Assembly (NCBI GenBank): GCA_035699745.1
Contig: DASSPH010000044.1
Location: forward strand, 1 to 64,000
Length of the DNA: 64,000 bases
Reading direction: 5' to 3'
Source of the DNA: Vicinamibacterales bacterium
Lineage (GTDB): Bacteria > Acidobacteriota > Vicinamibacteria > Vicinamibacterales > 2-12-FULL-66-21
The translations under genes were made by a program, and so were the position numbers. Positions 1 to 63,412 of the stretch are shown here, in pieces. The notes under the pieces were generated by a model. It made no database searches. It had not been told where the DNA came from and saw nothing but the letters and a program-made list of their open reading frames with translations. Numbering within the stretch: the stretch's first letter is position 1; every line of letters starts with the position of its first letter.

Positions 1-253
1 GGGGGTCAGGTCTGCAAACGGGCGCACCGGGGGTCAGGTCTGCAAACGGGCGCACCGGGGGTCAGGTCTGCAGACGGGCGCACCGGGGGTCAGGTCTGCA
101 GACGGGCGGACCGGGGCTCAGGTCTGCAGACGGGCGCACCGGGGGTCAGGTCTGCAGATGGGCCCACCGGGGTCAGGTCTACAAGCGGGCGCACCAGGGA
201 GGAGGCAGGTCTACAAACGGGCGCACCTGGGGGTCAGGTCTACAAAGCAGGCG
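1..253. repeat. Tandem array of ~28-bp REP-like repeats, left of the RAYT gene
   Basis: Six units of exactly 28 bp run from 1 to 168. Two or three shorter, diverged units follow to about 253. The shared core is CAGGTCTGCAGACGGGCGC, which contains the palindrome GTCTGCAGAC. Units at the window edge are nearly identical; those closest to the transposase are degenerate. The array starts at the window edge and may continue beyond it. There are no unique spacers, so this is not CRISPR. The same core appears in inverted orientation on the far side of the transposase (1270-1438). Confidence 0.9.
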
Positions 254-277
254 GGGTCAGGTCTCGAAACGAAGGGG

Positions 278-1159
278 TCAGGGCTGGCTTTCAACCGCTG
301 CAACGACGGTATCGCGCTGGGCGCCCGCCGCATTCGCGCGGACGAGGCGCCCGACGGAACGGGCGGACAGTCCGGCGCACTCCGCGATCTCCTTGATCGA
401 GTACTCCGCGGCGAACGCGTCGATGATTCCGCCGTGCAGACCCGCTCCGCGCGTCAGCGCATCCGCCAGCAGCGTTACCAACGGGGGGGTCCCAATCCGC
501 CGCTCGCGCGCGGGGACCTCTCGTGACGCGCGCCGAGCCTCCGCCGAGAACTGCCGCGCGAATTCGTCACTGCCGATGACGCGCCGATCGCTCCGGACCA
601 GCGCCGCCATCTCCTCGTCGCCCTGGTCATCCACATACTCCAGGAGCCGCGCCAATGAAAGGCGCGTATCGGGATCGATCGCGGTGAGCAGCGACGGGAC
701 GTCAACGCACGTTGACGCCGTCCCGCAAAGCGCCGGGTAACTGCTCCATCGCCACCCTCCAGGGTGTGAGACAAGGTGCGCGCGCACGGGATTCAACAGT
801 ACGTAGCGGCAGAGACGGACGAGATAGGTGCAGGCCTCGACGATCTGCGCCTTGAAGCGCGCCTGGTAGACGTGTCCCACATGTCCGTGACGTCTGTTCC
901 ACCATTGTGCGTAGGTGCCGTTCAGTTGCCGGACGGCGCCCGACAGGTTCGGGCAGCGCGTTCGGAACACGGCGTGATAGTGCGTCGGCATCACGCAGTA
1001 CAGCCAAAGATCCAGCCGGTAGTTCTCACGCACGTCCGACAGAATCGAGACAAACCGCGCGTAGTCGAGATCGTCGAGAAAGATGCGCATCTTGTTATTG
1101 CCGCGCGACATTACGTGGTAGATGAGGCCGGCACGCTGGATGCGGAGAGGTCGAGACAT
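278..1159 (-). CDS. REP-associated tyrosine transposase (RAYT, Y1_Tnp/TnpA_REP family)
   Basis: A 293-residue protein of the Y1 single-strand transposase family, which nicks and mobilises REP hairpins. The N-terminus has the family motif GLIYHVMSRGN (11-21). The metal-binding HxH triad is His60-Tyr61-His62 in MPTHYH. The block YLVRLCRYVLLNPVRA (112-127) carries the candidate nucleophile Tyr112. A C-terminal helix-turn-helix-like segment (about 260-285, IKEIAECAGLSARSVGRL) may bind DNA. The ATG at 1159 is chosen because everything upstream in frame is translated repeat DNA. The stop codon lies inside a repeat-like GGGGTCAGG motif, so gene end and array touch. Size and domains look intact, so the enzyme may be active. 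Family assignment is confident; activity is inference. Confidence 0.9.
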   Translation of the reverse strand: MSRPLRIQRAGLIYHVMSRGNNKMRIFLDDLDYARFVSILSDVRENYRLDLWLYCVMPTHYHAVFRTRCPNLSGAVRQLNGTYAQWWNRRHGHVGHVYQARFKAQIVEACTYLVRLCRYVLLNPVRAHLVSHPGGWRWSSYPALCGTASTCVDVPSLLTAIDPDTRLSLARLLEYVDDQGDEEMAALVRSDRRVIGSDEFARQFSAEARRASREVPARERRIGTPPLVTLLADALTRGAGLHGGIIDAFAAEYSIKEIAECAGLSARSVGRLVRANAAGAQRDTVVAAVESQP

Positions 1160-1269
1160 ACCGTCCGTCAGTCCAGAATCGCGCCAAGTCGGCTGGCGCA
1201 AAATACGCCGCAAATCGAAGGACTCGTCAGCGTCAGCGGCGGAAGCGTCAACCGCAGTCACCCGAGCTG

Positions 1270-1438
1270 CGGCCCGTTCGCAGACCTGGCACCGATAAGC
1301 GCCCGTCCGCAGACCTGGCACCGATAAGCGCCCGTCCGCAGACCTGGCACCGATAAGCGCCCGTCCGCAGACCTGGCACCGGCAGGCGCCCGTTCGCAGA
1401 CCTGGCACTGGTAGGCGCACGTTCGCAGACCTGGCACC
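1270..1438. repeat. Tandem array of 29-bp REP-like repeats, right of the RAYT gene, inverted relative to the left array
   Basis: CAGACCTGGC recurs at 1281, 1310, 1339, 1368, 1397 and 1426, an exact 29-bp period in six copies. The middle copies are identical and the outer two differ in the variable segment. Read on the minus strand the core is CAGGTCTGCGGACGGGCGC, the same core as the left array. The RAYT gene therefore sits between two arrays facing each other. Besides this array, 1160-1515 holds only unremarkable flanking DNA and the start of the next gene's promoter region. Confidence 0.9.
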
Positions 1439-1515
1439 ACGGCACCACGGCAGCGGACGGCGCTACGACCGGTGGTAGTAGACGACGGGGCCTGCGTAGA
1501 ATCCCTTCACGCAGA

Positions 1516-3720
1516 ATGACCGTGAAACTGCTCTATGCCATGTCTTTGAGCCTCCTGTCGTTCGGCGCCGATGCCGAGGCTCAGACGCCGACCCGGTTTC
1601 AGGGACGCGTCGTCAGCGGCGCCGGCGAGAGCCCGGTCGCCGGCGCGACCGTATCGATCGTCGGCGTGAACGGGTCCGCGCAGACCGACACGGACGGCCG
1701 CTTCGACTGGGCGCCGGCGCCGGCCGTGCCGTTCCAGTTGATCATCGTGCTCCCCGACGGCGCCGTCGCGCAGCCGGTCATCGTCGACGCCCTGCAGGAC
1801 GGGTCGACGACCATACGCATCAAATCGCTGGCCGACGAGGCCGTCACCGTGCTCGGCGCGGCGCCCAGCATCACGACCGCGCCGGCATCCGCGACCACCG
1901 TGCTGTCCGCAACCCAGGTGTCGCAGCGGAATCCTGAAAACCTGATGCAGGCGCTCGAAACGGTGCCCGGACTCAATCAGGTAGCCGAGGGGCACGCGTC
2001 GGTTCCCGCGGTGCGCGGGCTCGCGCGCGGCCGGACGTTGTTTCTCATCGACGGCGGCCGCGTGACCGCGGAACGGCGCGTCGGGCCGAGCGGAACCTTC
2101 CTGGACCCCTCAGTGATCGAAGGGATCGACATCGCTCGCGGGCCCGGCACCGTCGCCTACGGATCGGACGCGCTGGGGGGCGTCATCTCCGTGCGGACCC
2201 GGCAGGCCGCGCCGGGCACGCCGCTGCGGACGACGATCAGCGGCACGTTCGGCACCGGGATCCCCGAAGCGCGGGGCTCCGTGGAAGTCGCGAAGGGGTT
2301 CGCGCGGGGCGGGGTGCTGGTCCAGGCGCACGTCCGCAACGCCGAGGACTACGCCGGCCCGGAGACGGACGTCTTCAACTCCGGCTGGGAGGATCAGGGC
2401 TTTCTCGTCAATGCCCAGCACACCGTCGGCCGCGGCATCCTGTCCGGCGCCTGGCAGAGCGATTTCGGACGCGACTTCGAGCGGCCGCGCAACAACTCGC
2501 GGACGGTGCGCTTCTACTACCCGTTCGAGAACTCGCATCGCTTCACCGCGTCGTACAAGCTGCCCGACGTCGGCGGCTTCCGCCAGGTGGCCTTCACCGG
2601 ATTTCTCGGCGGCTACGAGCAGCGCACCGATCAGGATCGGTTTCCGACGGCGACGACCGGCCGCAGCATCGAGCGCGCGGACGTGTCAGCCAACGACTTC
2701 CACGTCAAGGGCACCGCCGAGCGTCTGGCCGGAGGAGCGCGCATCGAATTCGGCGTCGACGTGAACGGCCGCTTCGGTCTCGAGGCGCTCGACATCACCC
2801 AGGCCTACGCCGTCGGCGGCGCGCTCACCACCGACACCACCACCGTCTCCGTCGAGAACGCGCGCCGCGTCGATGCCGGCCTGTACCTGCAAGCCGAAAC
2901 GGCGCTCGGCCCGATGGCGCGCGTGTCCGGCGGCGTCCGGGCGGATCGGGTGACCACCCGCAACACCGGCGGCTCTTTCGGCGATCGGTCGACGGCGAAC
3001 ACCGCCGGGTCGGGGTTCGGCGCCGTGACGCTCGGACCCTACGAGGGATTCAGCGTCACCGCCCAGCTGTCGCGCGGCTTCCGCGATCCCGTCCTGTCGG
3101 ACCGCTACTTCCGCGGTCCGTCGGGACGCGGATTCATCACCGGCAATCCGGATCTGGAGCCGGAAACGAGCCTGCAGTTCGATTTCGCGACCCGCTACAC
3201 CGTCGCGCGCACGCAGGTCGCCGCGTACTTCTACGACTACCGCATCACCGATCTGATCGAGCGATATTCGACCCAGACCGATTTCTTCTTCTTCAGGAAC
3301 CGCGGGCGCGCGCGGCTGCGCGGGTTCGAGGTCGAGGCGCGGTCCGAGGTCGGGCGCGGGTATTCGATCGAAGCCGGGGCGCAGATCGCGCGCGGACGGG
3401 CGCTCGACGACGACGCCAACCTCGATGACGTGTCGCCGGTGACGCTCAGCGGCGCGCTGCGCAAGGAGATCCAGGACCGCGGCTACGCCCAGCTCCGCAT
3501 CGCCTGGTTCGCGGACGACACGCGGCCCGGGCCGAGCGAGATCGCCGCGCCCGGCGCCACCCTGCTGGACCTCGGCGGCGGCTGGCGGCTCGCCCCGCAA
3601 GTGGAGCTGCGGGGATACGCGCGCAACCTGCTGAACGAGACCTACTACGCCAGTCCGGATCCGCGCTTCGTGCCCGCGCCGGGCCGCTCCGCGAGCCTCA
3701 GCGCCGTCGTCAGGTTCTAG
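1516..3720 (+). CDS. TonB-dependent outer-membrane receptor with N-terminal carboxypeptidase-regulatory-like domain
   Basis: 734 residues. A signal peptide (about 1-23, ending ADAEAQ) is followed by a CarboxypepD_reg-like beta-sandwich (about 28-105). A plug domain (about 115-230) has the typical LMQALETVPGLNQ and YGSDALGGVISVRTRQ motifs. The 22-strand type barrel ends in the outer-membrane C-terminal Phe (VVRF). It should import an unknown ligand with energy from TonB-ExbBD. No substrate-binding or regulatory partner is adjacent, so the ligand cannot be named. A TAGAAT hexamer at 1497-1502 and a short hairpin (CTGCGT / ACGCAG, 1492-1514) precede the ATG. The gene ends in CTAG, shared with the stop of convergent nadK. 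Confidence 0.92.
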   Translation: MTVKLLYAMSLSLLSFGADAEAQTPTRFQGRVVSGAGESPVAGATVSIVGVNGSAQTDTDGRFDWAPAPAVPFQLIIVLPDGAVAQPVIVDALQDGSTTIRIKSLADEAVTVLGAAPSITTAPASATTVLSATQVSQRNPENLMQALETVPGLNQVAEGHASVPAVRGLARGRTLFLIDGGRVTAERRVGPSGTFLDPSVIEGIDIARGPGTVAYGSDALGGVISVRTRQAAPGTPLRTTISGTFGTGIPEARGSVEVAKGFARGGVLVQAHVRNAEDYAGPETDVFNSGWEDQGFLVNAQHTVGRGILSGAWQSDFGRDFERPRNNSRTVRFYYPFENSHRFTASYKLPDVGGFRQVAFTGFLGGYEQRTDQDRFPTATTGRSIERADVSANDFHVKGTAERLAGGARIEFGVDVNGRFGLEALDITQAYAVGGALTTDTTTVSVENARRVDAGLYLQAETALGPMARVSGGVRADRVTTRNTGGSFGDRSTANTAGSGFGAVTLGPYEGFSVTAQLSRGFRDPVLSDRYFRGPSGRGFITGNPDLEPETSLQFDFATRYTVARTQVAAYFYDYRITDLIERYSTQTDFFFFRNRGRARLRGFEVEARSEVGRGYSIEAGAQIARGRALDDDANLDDVSPVTLSGALRKEIQDRGYAQLRIAWFADDTRPGPSEIAAPGATLLDLGGGWRLAPQVELRGYARNLLNETYYASPDPRFVPAPGRSASLSAVVRF

Positions 3721-9830: not shown

Positions 9831-9926
9831 CGAGGTTCGAGCATCGAGCATCGAGGGGCGAGGATCGAGGATCGAGAATCGAGGATCGATCGCCCCTCGA
9901 ACCTCGCCCCCGAACCTCGCTCCTCG
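9831..9926. repeat. Heptamer repeats forming a long hairpin between hsp20 and rpoZ
   Basis: Degenerate 7-bp units (CGAGCAT, CGAGGAT, CGAGAAT) fill the gap. CGAGGTTCGA (9831-9840) pairs perfectly with TCGAACCTCG (9897-9906), and CGAGGGGCG (9852-9860) pairs with CGCCCCTCG (9891-9899). The result is a hairpin of about 76 nt after the hsp20 stop. No T-run follows, so factor-independent termination is not certain. Confidence 0.75.
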
Positions 9927-37824: not shown

Positions 37825-37912
37825 CCCGATCACCCGATGACCCGATCACCCGATCACCCGATGGCCCGATCACCCGATGGCCCGATCACCCGATGGCCCG
37901 ATCACCCGATAT
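37825..37912. repeat. Octamer array (CCCGATCA / CCCGATGG), 11 units
   Basis: Eleven exact 8-bp-spaced units of CCCGATNN fill most of the divergent intergenic region; the last is CCCGATAT and runs into TAGACT. The array lies between the -10 box of the epimerase (37802-37797) and the presumed promoter of the rhomboid gene. Unit number could vary by slippage and change spacing, but that is untested. Confidence 0.85.
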
Positions 37913-43470: not shown

Positions 43471-43502
43471 TTTGGAAATTTGGGAATTTGGAAATTTGGG
43501 AA
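43471..43502. repeat. Octamer array TTTGGAAA / TTTGGGAA, four units
   Basis: Four perfect 8-bp units alternate TTTGGAAA and TTTGGGAA just upstream of apaG (minus strand) and at the start of the small Cys-rich ORF (plus strand). It is AT-rich against a GC-rich background. The same octamer family reappears as an inverted hairpin at 45713-45811, so the pair brackets the aconitase block. Confidence 0.8.
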
Positions 43503-43693
43503 TCTCGCCTGACGCCGGGCTCTGCGCGACGTGCGCGCATGCCAGGGCGATCGTCAGCGACCGCGGTTCGATCTTCCTTTCCTGCCTGAGATCGAAGACC
43601 GATCCGCGGTTTCCGCGCTATCCGCGCCTGCCGGTGGTCGCGTGTATTGGCTATGATGAGAAGTCATGCACACCATCCAGCCCGCGAGATTGA
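43496..43693 (+). CDS. Small Cys-rich (zinc-binding) conserved-type protein
   Basis: About 65 residues. LCATCAHARAIVSDRGSIF, then CLRSKTDPRFPRYPRLPV and ACIGYD, with four Cys in a CxxC-C-C pattern likely to bind zinc; the wording resembles a small family I have seen in other bacteria, but I cannot name it. The start is unclear: no ATG, with TTG at 43496 or 43472 inside the octamer array. The last 28 bp overlap the aconitase gene. An in-frame Cys pattern this ordered is unlikely to be a chance shadow. Confidence 0.5.
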   Translation: MGISPDAGLCATCAHARAIVSDRGSIFLSCLRSKTDPRFPRYPRLPVVACIGYDEKSCTPSSPRD

Positions 43694-45711
43694 GGGCGGG
43701 CGTCTCCACGGCGGACATTCCCGACCACAGCCGTGACGGCGCGGCGGCGCACGACGATCGGCTGATCCGAGGCCGCGCGCTGATCTTCTGGGATCCCGCC
43801 AGTCCCACGCCGAAGAAGCGCGACGCGATCGATACCGATCAGATCACGCCCGCCGCCGACTGCGTGTCGGAGAGTCTCGAGACGCTGGACGAGCGCTGGA
43901 AGGCGGGATCGTTCCGCTACCTGATGCCGGATTTCCGCGCCCGCGTGCATCGCGGCGAGACGTTCGTCATTGCCGGCGACCGCTTCGCGATCGGATCCTC
44001 GCGCGAGATGAGCCCGGCCGGTTTGAAAGGGGTCGCCGAGGAAGCCGGCCTGCAGATGGTGGTGGTCTGCGGCCACAACATGGGCGACATCTTCCGCCGC
44101 AACGCCTTCAACCTCGGCCTGCACGTCGTGCAGAGTCCGGACGCGGTCGCCGACGCGCAGGACGGCGACGAGCTCACGTTCGATCCGCTGACCCGCCGGC
44201 TCGCGAACGTGACCCGGGGAAAGACCTACGAGCCGGTCCCGCTCTCCCCGAAGGAAGAGGAGATCCGCCGCGGCGGCGGCATCTTCGAGGTGGGCCGCCG
44301 CGAGTTCCGCGCGTCGGTGGCGACGGCGCCGTCGATCGACTGGGCCGATCCCGACGCCGCGCGCGGCATGACGACGACAGAGCAGATCGTCTGGGCGCAC
44401 CGCGTCGACAAGGATCTGAAGCCGTCGGATCTCAGGCCGGGCACCACGCTGCGGGTGTATGCCGATCTGCTGCCGGCGTCCGACGGCACGGCTCCGTTCG
44501 CCATCCATACGTTCAACCAGATCACGGGCGGGAACACCATCTACCCGCGGCAGGCGGCCATCGCCAACGATCACTTCGTCTTCACCGGCAGCGCCGTGGA
44601 CGACAAACAGACCGGCATCGGCCGCGAGTTCGCGCGCCGGCAGGCGATGGTGAAGCCGTACTACGCGACGCCGGGCGACGGCATCTTCCACTTCTATTTT
44701 CCCGAACAGGGGCTGGTGATGCCGGGACAGTTCATTCCCGGCGCCGATTCGCACAGCCGCGCCTACGGCGCCTACGGCGCCGTCGGCATCGGCGTCGGAT
44801 CGACGACGCTCGGGTTCGGCTGGGCGACCGGCTACATCTATTTCACGCTCGCCAGGGCGCGCCGCGTCCGCTTCGACGGACGCCTGCAGCCGTGGGTCAG
44901 CGGCAAGGACATCGTCCTCGAGCTGCTGCGCCGCTGGGGCGCGAAGCAGTCGCAGGGCATGTCAGTGGAGCTGGTCGACGCCAATCGGCAACTGCCGATC
45001 GCGTATCGCAACACGATCGCCAACATGATGGCGGAGGCCGAGGCGTTGAACGGGATCTTCGCGCCCGACGAGACGACCTGCGAGTGGTTCCGGCAGAAGG
45101 GGCTCACCGCGCTGCCGTATCCGCCGATCGCGCCCGGGAGCGAGGCGCGCTACGAGATCGACGAAGCGTTCGATCTGTCCGCGGTGCGGCCGATGATCGC
45201 CAAGCCGTTCAGCCCCGGCAACGCGTTTCCCGCCGAGGAGGTCGCCCGCGAGCGCATCACCTTCGACAAGGCGATGATCGGCTCGTGCACGAACGGGAGC
45301 TATGACGACCTGCTGCAGGCGGCGCTCGTCATGCGCGCGGCACGCCGGACGGGGGCCACCAGAGTGGATCGCGAGTTCCGCATCTTCCCGGGCTCGGGAG
45401 GCGTCGGACGTCAGATCGAGCAGCCCGACCCGCGCCTGGGCGGCGAGTCGATCGCGCAGGTGTTCCGGGCGGCCGGCGGAGAGATCCGGCAATCCTGGTG
45501 CGGCCCGTGCTTCGGCCAGGGACCGGACGCGCTGACCGCCGGCCAGCGCGCCATCACCTCGTTCAACCGCAACTGGCAGAACCGCATGGGGCTCGGCGGC
45601 GAAGGCTATCTCGCCAGCCCCGCGGTCGTCGCCGCGTCCGCGCTCGTCGGCTACATGGCACCGCCAAGCGAGCTGGGACTCACCTGGGACCCCGACCAGT
45701 TCGGAGCCTAG
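43666..45711 (+). CDS. Aconitase-family hydratase with N-terminal swivel domain
   Basis: 681 residues. Residues about 1-225 are a LeuD/aconitase swivel domain (DAIDTDQITPA, AIGSSREMSPAGL, MGDIFRRNAFNLGL). Residues about 235-681 are the LeuC-like catalytic part (ADSHSRAYGAYGAVGIGVGSTT) with [4Fe-4S] ligands Cys541 (GSCTNGS), Cys612 and Cys615 (WCGPCFGQG). This swivel-first order matches AcnB, but the AcnB HEAT domain is missing. It is a likely paralogue for citrate, homocitrate or another substrate. TATGAT ends 8 nt before the ATG. A canonical acnA is at 26985. Confidence 0.88.
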   Translation: MHTIQPARLRAGVSTADIPDHSRDGAAAHDDRLIRGRALIFWDPASPTPKKRDAIDTDQITPAADCVSESLETLDERWKAGSFRYLMPDFRARVHRGETFVIAGDRFAIGSSREMSPAGLKGVAEEAGLQMVVVCGHNMGDIFRRNAFNLGLHVVQSPDAVADAQDGDELTFDPLTRRLANVTRGKTYEPVPLSPKEEEIRRGGGIFEVGRREFRASVATAPSIDWADPDAARGMTTTEQIVWAHRVDKDLKPSDLRPGTTLRVYADLLPASDGTAPFAIHTFNQITGGNTIYPRQAAIANDHFVFTGSAVDDKQTGIGREFARRQAMVKPYYATPGDGIFHFYFPEQGLVMPGQFIPGADSHSRAYGAYGAVGIGVGSTTLGFGWATGYIYFTLARARRVRFDGRLQPWVSGKDIVLELLRRWGAKQSQGMSVELVDANRQLPIAYRNTIANMMAEAEALNGIFAPDETTCEWFRQKGLTALPYPPIAPGSEARYEIDEAFDLSAVRPMIAKPFSPGNAFPAEEVARERITFDKAMIGSCTNGSYDDLLQAALVMRAARRTGATRVDREFRIFPGSGGVGRQIEQPDPRLGGESIAQVFRAAGGEIRQSWCGPCFGQGPDALTAGQRAITSFNRNWQNRMGLGGEGYLASPAVVAASALVGYMAPPSELGLTWDPDQFGA

Positions 45712-45712
45712 T

Positions 45713-45811
45713 GGATTTGGAAATTCGGAAATGTTGGAATTTGGAAATCTGACGGTGCCAGATTTCCCGATTTCCAAATTTCCAGATTTCCAGATTTCCA
45801 AATTTCCAAAT
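45713..45811. repeat. Inverted octamer repeats between convergent aconitase and acyl-CoA dehydrogenase genes
   Basis: The left half has TTTGGAAA-type units (45716-45749); the right half has six octamers NNATTTCC (45760-45807), the reverse complement type. Around the short centre GACGGTGCC they can form a long AT-rich hairpin. Placed between two stop codons it may be a bidirectional terminator. Confidence 0.75.
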
Positions 45812-49352: not shown

Positions 49353-49391
49353 GGGGATCGGGGATCGGGGATCGGGGATTGGCGATCGGGG
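49353..49391. repeat. Heptamer array (GGGGATC), five to six units
   Basis: GGGGATC is repeated at 7-bp spacing (49353, 49360, 49367, 49374, 49381) with slight change in the last units. It fills the divergent region between the PL6 and beta-helix/PA14 genes and runs directly into the TATAGC hexamer (49397-49402) of the latter. Confidence 0.8.
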
Positions 49392-54010: not shown

Positions 54011-54041
54011 CGAACCTCGAACCTCGAACCTCGAGCCTCGA
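54011..54041. repeat. Heptamer array (CGAACCT), four units
   Basis: CGAACCT three times and CGAGCCT once at 7-bp spacing, in the 38-bp gap between convergent ChaN-like and M28 peptidase genes. The same heptamer also appears in the hairpin at 9897-9914. Confidence 0.75.
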
Positions 54042-63289: not shown

Positions 63290-63412
63290 TGGGAGGGAAC
63301 GGATTCACAGAACGGAGGAACGGAGGAACGGAGGGAACGGAGGGAACGGAGGTGAACGGGGAGGGAACGGATTCACAGAACGGAGGAACGGAGGGAACGG
63401 AGGTGAACGGAG
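63290..63412. repeat. Tandem GGAACGGA-type repeats with a 68-bp higher-order repeat
   Basis: Units such as AACGGAGG and AACGGAGGG repeat across the region. The segment GGATTCACAG recurs at 63301 and 63369, a 68-bp higher-order period. The in-frame reading (Asn-Gly-Gly rich) is a repeat artefact. The right end abuts the IS256-type element. Confidence 0.8.

Follow-up and report, generated by a model that had tools for sequence, protein, structure and literature searches.

A gene for a bacterial transposase of the RAYT, or domesticated, type, found at the start of the stretch of DNA analysed here (the window, 64 kb), lies between two head-to-tail arrays of a short repeat that face each other across it, and paired arrays of the same repeat recur elsewhere in the genome. 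We interpret the locus, with reasonable confidence, as a TIRtron-type element, mobile now or formerly, in which the terminal repeat has been multiplied at each end.

The RAYT locus and its repeat arrays

Contig C44, at the end of which the window begins, belongs to a 6.3-Mb genome assembled into 110 contigs. The locus and its surroundings contain the following features.

1..273, plus strand: left repeat array, 28-bp steps, box mostly GGGGTCAGGTCTG
274..287, plus strand: innermost degenerate copy of the motif, GGGGTCAGGGCTGG, holding the transposase stop codon (278-280)
278..1159, minus strand: Y1/HUH transposase (RAYT, TIRYT type), 293 aa (coding 281-1159 plus stop 278-280)
1271..1438, minus strand: right repeat array, six 29-bp units, box GGTGCCAGGTCTG
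1433..1452, plus strand: 2.5 copies of GGCACCAC (edge of the box with adjoining flank) bordering the right array on its outer side
1516..3720, plus strand: neighbouring ORF, TonB-dependent-receptor-like (named by eye only), outside the element

In the left array, six units at 28-bp steps start at 7, 35, 63, 91, 119 and 147; others follow at 174 and 206, and degenerate ones reach to ∼273. On the opposite strand, units of the right array start at 1271, 1300, 1329, 1358, 1387 and 1416 (29-bp steps). The two arrays have tandem repeat scores of 349 and 264. Contig C15 shares a terminal overlap of exactly 107 bp with C44, and its end holds the outer units of the left array; this array would have ∼15 recognised units if the join of C15 and C44 is right. 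Under the same 107-bp join, the first degenerate unit (at the C15 start, L146) provides the stop codon for an ORF lying upstream, one that resembles, by eye, the C-terminus of an MltG-type protein.

The original prediction of a RAYT gene between inverted arrays holds in part, with corrections. The opposite orientation of the arrays (left on the plus strand, right on the minus strand) and the placement of the transposase stop inside a repeat-like motif were both confirmed. The steps and counts given for the arrays, six 28-bp units on the left and six 29-bp units on the right, were correct as well, but the units are not exact copies. A 19-base core said to be shared by all units is present as written in only two left units (63 and 119) and three right ones. 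The palindrome GTCTGCAGAC, described as a feature of the repeat, occurs in three units of the window and in only 10 of the 178 units of the genome; it is therefore not a property of the repeat, and a palindrome in each unit is ruled out as the recognised structure. The one-base difference between left and right periods, to which significance had been attached, is incidental since periods of 27 to 30 bp are found both between arrays and inside single ones.

Other repeats were seen elsewhere in the window. AT-rich octamer repeats (TTTGGAAA and CCAGATTT) at 43471-43503 and 45715-45808 flank, in inverted orientation, an ORF at 43666-45711 that is aconitase-like by eye. Short tandem arrays with units of 7-9 bp are situated at 37825-37910 (units CCCGATCA and CCCGATGG), 9831-9889, 49353-49391, 54011-54041 and 63310-63412.

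The transposase

The window gene is a RAYT of the long type with a helix-turn-helix (HTH) domain. Its protein product matches the Y1_Tnp domain above cut-off and has the catalytic residues of the family, the HYH motif (H60 and H62) and the tyrosine Y119; in an alignment of 19 homologs these three residues, as well as N123 and P124 of the NP motif, are invariant. With the NCBIfam RAYT model NF047646 the match is nearly end to end and scores 61.5, below the cut-off of 80, so the protein is either a divergent member of this family or a member of another subclass. The C-terminal HTH occupies about residues 232-290; HTH_23 matches the window protein weakly (E 0.065) and the C-terminus in 15 of the 19 homologs. 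The predicted structure (mean pLDDT 87.7) has helices in the region 241-290, and its best fold match is 4ER8, the E. coli RAYT with a REP hairpin, followed by other transposases of the IS200 family. Taken together with the motif, these features, not a reference tree, suggest placement of the window RAYT in subclass 2.1 (group 1). Direct search for related loci with the window protein produced no homologs; relatives were found by profile and whole-genome searches.

Two more Y1_Tnp genes are present in the genome (G000, contigs C42 and C69; L148 and L032), and the motifs flanking them, GGGGTCAGACCCGG and GGGGACAGTCC, are different.

A dispersed repeat family in the genome

Pattern searches, whose inventory is a lower bound, identified at least 178 units at 16 loci of the genome, while the reversed control gave none. 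The unit is ∼29 bp long and is built around a conserved box, GGKGYCAGGTCT, with most positions conserved at about 97% or more. An 18-mer with one mismatch allowed had 65 matches in the genome vs 0 for the reversed pattern; two CAGGTCTG boxes spaced 24-32 bp apart occurred 95 times (control 0). The repeat core was predicted to occur outside the locus, and it does, across the genome as well as in related genomes. The initial description of the gene as a RAYT-type gene with its cognate repeats is supported.

Fourteen of the 16 loci are cleanly bipartite (plus units followed by minus units); in the remaining two, on C14 and C41, orientation alternates. Only at the window locus does a RAYT gene lie between the arrays, and the other 15 loci are paired arrays with no transposase. 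Arrays lacking any RAYT had been named in advance as a refuting result. Such arrays do exist, at these 15 loci and in one related genome (G043, see below), but the agreement between RAYT tree and repeat core leads us to read them as relics or non-autonomous copies. The proposal that RAYT-free loci are simple internal deletions of the RAYT element was unsupported as such; in the Massilia-type relatives described below, the centres of the elements are mostly unrelated to each other. An exception among these centres, with a likelihood of 69 vs at most 37 in shuffled sets, is a degenerate box near GCGGACGAGTCCGC.

Positions 3 and 5 of the box are coupled: 95 of the 178 units have GGTGC, 59 have GGGGT, and mixed forms are rare. 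The two box forms sometimes alternate within higher-order repeats.

Array growth

In the 11 bases past the box, units of the same array are 67% identical, vs 57% for units of the facing array and 57% for units of other loci. The within-array identity of 0.672 compares with 0.569 expected, and none of 2000 permutations of units reached the observed value. Since likeness is higher within arrays than across or between them, arrays have grown by local duplication, each side separately. Identity drops with unit distance inside arrays, and several arrays (C24, C82 and C41) have higher-order repeats of two or three units. The original prediction attributed local amplification to the enzyme; local growth is supported, but the data are also explained by slippage or unequal exchange, and as the maker of the array copies slippage fits equally well.

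Association of repeats and RAYTs in the order

The window RAYT is sister to the RAYT of a Vicinamibacteraceae MAG, ACI2 (G030), with support 96/87 (94/89 with Oxalobacteraceae added); the GGGGTCAGGTCTG core is common to both genomes, which belong to different families. Among the RAYTs of the order, most of the 21 in the long (HTH) clade have an inward-facing GGGGTCAGRTC on one or both sides, vs none of the eight in the short clade. Inverted pairs GGGGTCAGRTC...GAYCTGACCCC were present in 17 of 162 genomes of the order (reversed control 0), and 10 of these 17 were among the 19 genomes with a window-type RAYT (Fisher P = 5e-7), a set picked by score and thus with a soft boundary. In other relatives within the order (G052 and G142) brackets are 2+2 or mixed.

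One genome rated 100% complete, G043, has five inverted pairs of GGGGTCAGRTC and no Y1_Tnp match; the repeats can therefore outlive or precede a RAYT. Unrelated repeats, tandem or clustered, with periods of ∼37, 41, 32 and 11 bp flank some other RAYT genes of the order (L070, L075, L077, L066 and L122).

Folding and covariation

In the window's genome, facing arrays fold better than shuffled DNA (z from −2.4 to −15), which any inverted repeat is bound to do. One array by itself does not (z +3.7 for the right array, −0.7 for two units), and outside the box no left-right covariation was found in this genome (P = 0.20). Given the lack of a pairing signal and the unfolded single array, hairpin recognition has no direct support in the window's genome.

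In ACI2 the GGGGTCAGGTCTG core is found in +−, ++−−, ++ and +++ arrangements, including nested 2+2 hairpins. In the inner stems, 93% of variable positions are paired vs 75% with shuffled arms (0 of 20000), and at ten loci unit likeness is 0.91 between inner units, 0.87 between outer units and 0.83-0.84 between neighbours on the same side. In ACI2 at least, the two arms of the paired form are retained or copied together.

Massilia-type relatives

When named genomes were scanned for two exact cores, 118 stretches were found, mostly from ACI2, Massilia eurypsychrophila, the Pseudomonadota MAG bin05 (JARXKM) and other Oxalobacteraceae. RAYTs of Oxalobacteraceae type make up a separate clade (100/100). 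Facing arrays surround full-length RAYTs in bin05 (3+3), M. eurypsychrophila (2+2), Pseudoduganella (2+2) and others (1+1), so bracketing by multiplied repeats recurs in unrelated bacteria; some RAYTs in those same genomes had no such flanking units. The bracket in the window is the longest among those that we met. Exactly three units on each side were counted in the RAYT-bearing element of bin05 and in most other complete elements of that genome (L268, L174, L181, L182, L211, L213, L216, L221, L229 and L233).

The distance between inner units of Massilia-type elements (L160-L266) clusters near 79, 89, 99 and 109 bp. For 44 elements, phasing at the helical repeat of 10.5 bp is R = 0.76; an independent pattern search gave R = 0.74 for 47 elements, a value that a smoothed null exceeded in 0 of 20000 trials. 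With one element per sequence cluster, R was 0.72 (39 elements), the clustering run, like the motif run that identified the degenerate box near GCGGACGAGTCCGC, having taken in a few elements from other genomes. Of about 132 unit spacings, 114 equal 31 bp (three turns). In ACI2 there was a hint of phasing (R = 0.77), but many of the lengths there are equal by descent; in the window's genome helical phasing was not found (R = 0.16). This phasing was noticed after inspection of the data, as a statistical regularity among relatives, and says nothing direct about the window. For Massilia-type elements, the quantised spacing suggests that protein binds the duplex under a phase constraint.

At three orthologous sites in two species (L233/L257, L184/L168 and L210/L190), array pairs are kept within flanks that are about 76-83% identical; the DNA between the arrays cannot be aligned, and its lengths differ by 0, 10 and 22 bp. 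Centres of Massilia-type elements fold no better than shuffled sequences (mean z −0.36), which argues that no structured RNA is located there. The element at 3240-3439 of L250 (M. eurypsychrophila) is absent from the orthologous position ∼3650 of L245 (bin05), which may reflect gain or loss alike. A one-flank search for an empty site in the genus Massilia found only the element's own genome, and for the window element no empty site was found.

Interpretation

If the locus is a TIRtron-type element, it would consist of a RAYT of the HTH-bearing TIRYT class and of a ∼29-bp terminal inverted repeat with box GGKGYCAGGTCT, arrayed head-to-tail at each end, and the 15 transposase-free paired arrays would be its non-autonomous relatives. 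The enzyme would recognise the box, with the HUH domain acting on single strands or hairpins and the HTH possibly on duplex units, nick at the box and copy or move repeat pairs. Arrays might then lengthen by tandem duplication, either through replication slippage in hairpin DNA rich in repeats or through enzyme-mediated rejoining between neighbouring boxes. Counting against this reading are the lack of a left-right pairing signal in the window's genome, the NCBIfam score below the cut-off and the single RAYT copy that accompanies the array family.

The position of the window start, within an array and at the end of a contig, might point to an assembly artefact or to a tandem repeat that is there by chance; sixteen loci, mostly internal to contigs, the same structure in independent genomes and controls at zero make this scarcely credible. 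The arrays could instead be sites of the host, bound by a nucleoid or regulatory protein or acting as terminators, into one of which the RAYT merely landed. Most array loci do have no RAYT, and the helical phasing of Massilia-type elements, along with the retention of the same sites in two species, would fit a function in binding of protein to duplex DNA. However, the cognate core brackets RAYTs of two clades in several genomes, in the closest pair the core matches the RAYT phylogeny, and the distribution in the order is patchy (17/162 genomes), so that we regard host sites as improbable, if less so than an artefact.

We are also doubtful, to a lesser degree, that the RAYT builds the arrays itself by cutting neighbouring boxes and rejoining strands so as to add units. 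Such activity would agree with arrays of the same box around RAYTs of two separate clades, with the uniformity of bin05, where nearly all complete elements, including the RAYT-bearing one, have about three units a side at a 31-bp period, and with partial duplications of the box at outer edges. Yet arrays have also grown at loci with no RAYT gene nearby, as slippage predicts, and the higher-order repeats on C24, C82 and C41 are usual products of unequal duplication. Equally tentative is the idea that RAYTs read the units as double-stranded DNA through the HTH, forming a helically phased complex across facing arrays. The E. coli RAYT, by contrast, recognises a single-strand hairpin. Arrays read as duplexes would serve as platforms for binding, enlarged by amplification, and the intervening DNA could vary in sequence but not in helical phase.

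Returning to the TIRtron-type element, the array form separates dispersal of a repeat from its multiplication in place, two processes that are usually mixed up for REPs. Both questions could be approached at the bench in M. eurypsychrophila, a culturable relative whose compact 2+2 elements share the core.

Comparison with known systems

Canonical REPs carry a GTAG (or GGAG) tetranucleotide at the foot of the hairpin; the box found here, GGKGYCAGGTCT, has no such foot. Like BIMEs, the arrays are clusters of short repeats in intergenic DNA, but BIME units alternate in orientation, and units at 14 of the 16 loci do not. The likeness to REPINs (Bertels and Rainey 2011; PMC3116915) lies in the dispersed transposase-free inverted pairs, with paired stems that are clear in ACI2; the differences are an n:m instead of a 1:1 arrangement of units, the missing GTAG foot and, in the window's genome, the lack of left-right covariation. 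The same paper describes, close to RAYTs of Pseudomonas fluorescens SBW25, REPs in tandem arrays as well as clusters of REPINs; these arrays are also tandem repeats, and the higher-order clusters also adjoin RAYTs. In SBW25, though, two REP types alternate 72/112 bp apart or whole REPINs are repeated. In the window single units of the same orientation recur every ∼29 bp and an inverted array stands across the gene.

Quentin et al. (2018; PMC6006769) assign most TIRYTs to subclass 2.1, which corresponds to RAYT group 1, and describe the RAYTs of this group as having no REP-like sequences near their genes. The window protein resembles subclass 2.1 in length, Y1 core and C-terminal HTH. It differs from the surveyed members by the 178 dispersed cognate units, to which the hairpin families of ACI2 and other relatives can be added. 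These dispersed families define a candidate target box, with dozens of natural variants.

The closest known arrangement is that of TIRtrons (Di Nocera et al. 2013; PMC3733652), in which RAYT-like genes, several of them in Acidobacteria, lie between GGGGWSAS inverted repeats; TIRs of some families are scattered in the form of dimers or clusters. In the window, too, the gene lies between inverted repeats, and the repeated left GGGGTCAG conforms to GGGGWSAS; the right-hand units read as the variant GGTGCCAG. Unlike those TIRtrons, the window locus has ∼15 and 6 units head-to-tail, with RAYT-free paired arrays genome-wide, though small arrays may be present in Figure 9 of PMC3733652. Searches of the literature with the motif as a text string returned unrelated papers only, and, figures and supplements aside, no description was found of same-orientation arrays that face each other across a RAYT. 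The early suggestion of an unusual REPtron type is supported. Within the published descriptions considered, what is new here is what we call a TIRtron with its terminal repeat multiplied into arrays, accompanied by transposase-free copies.
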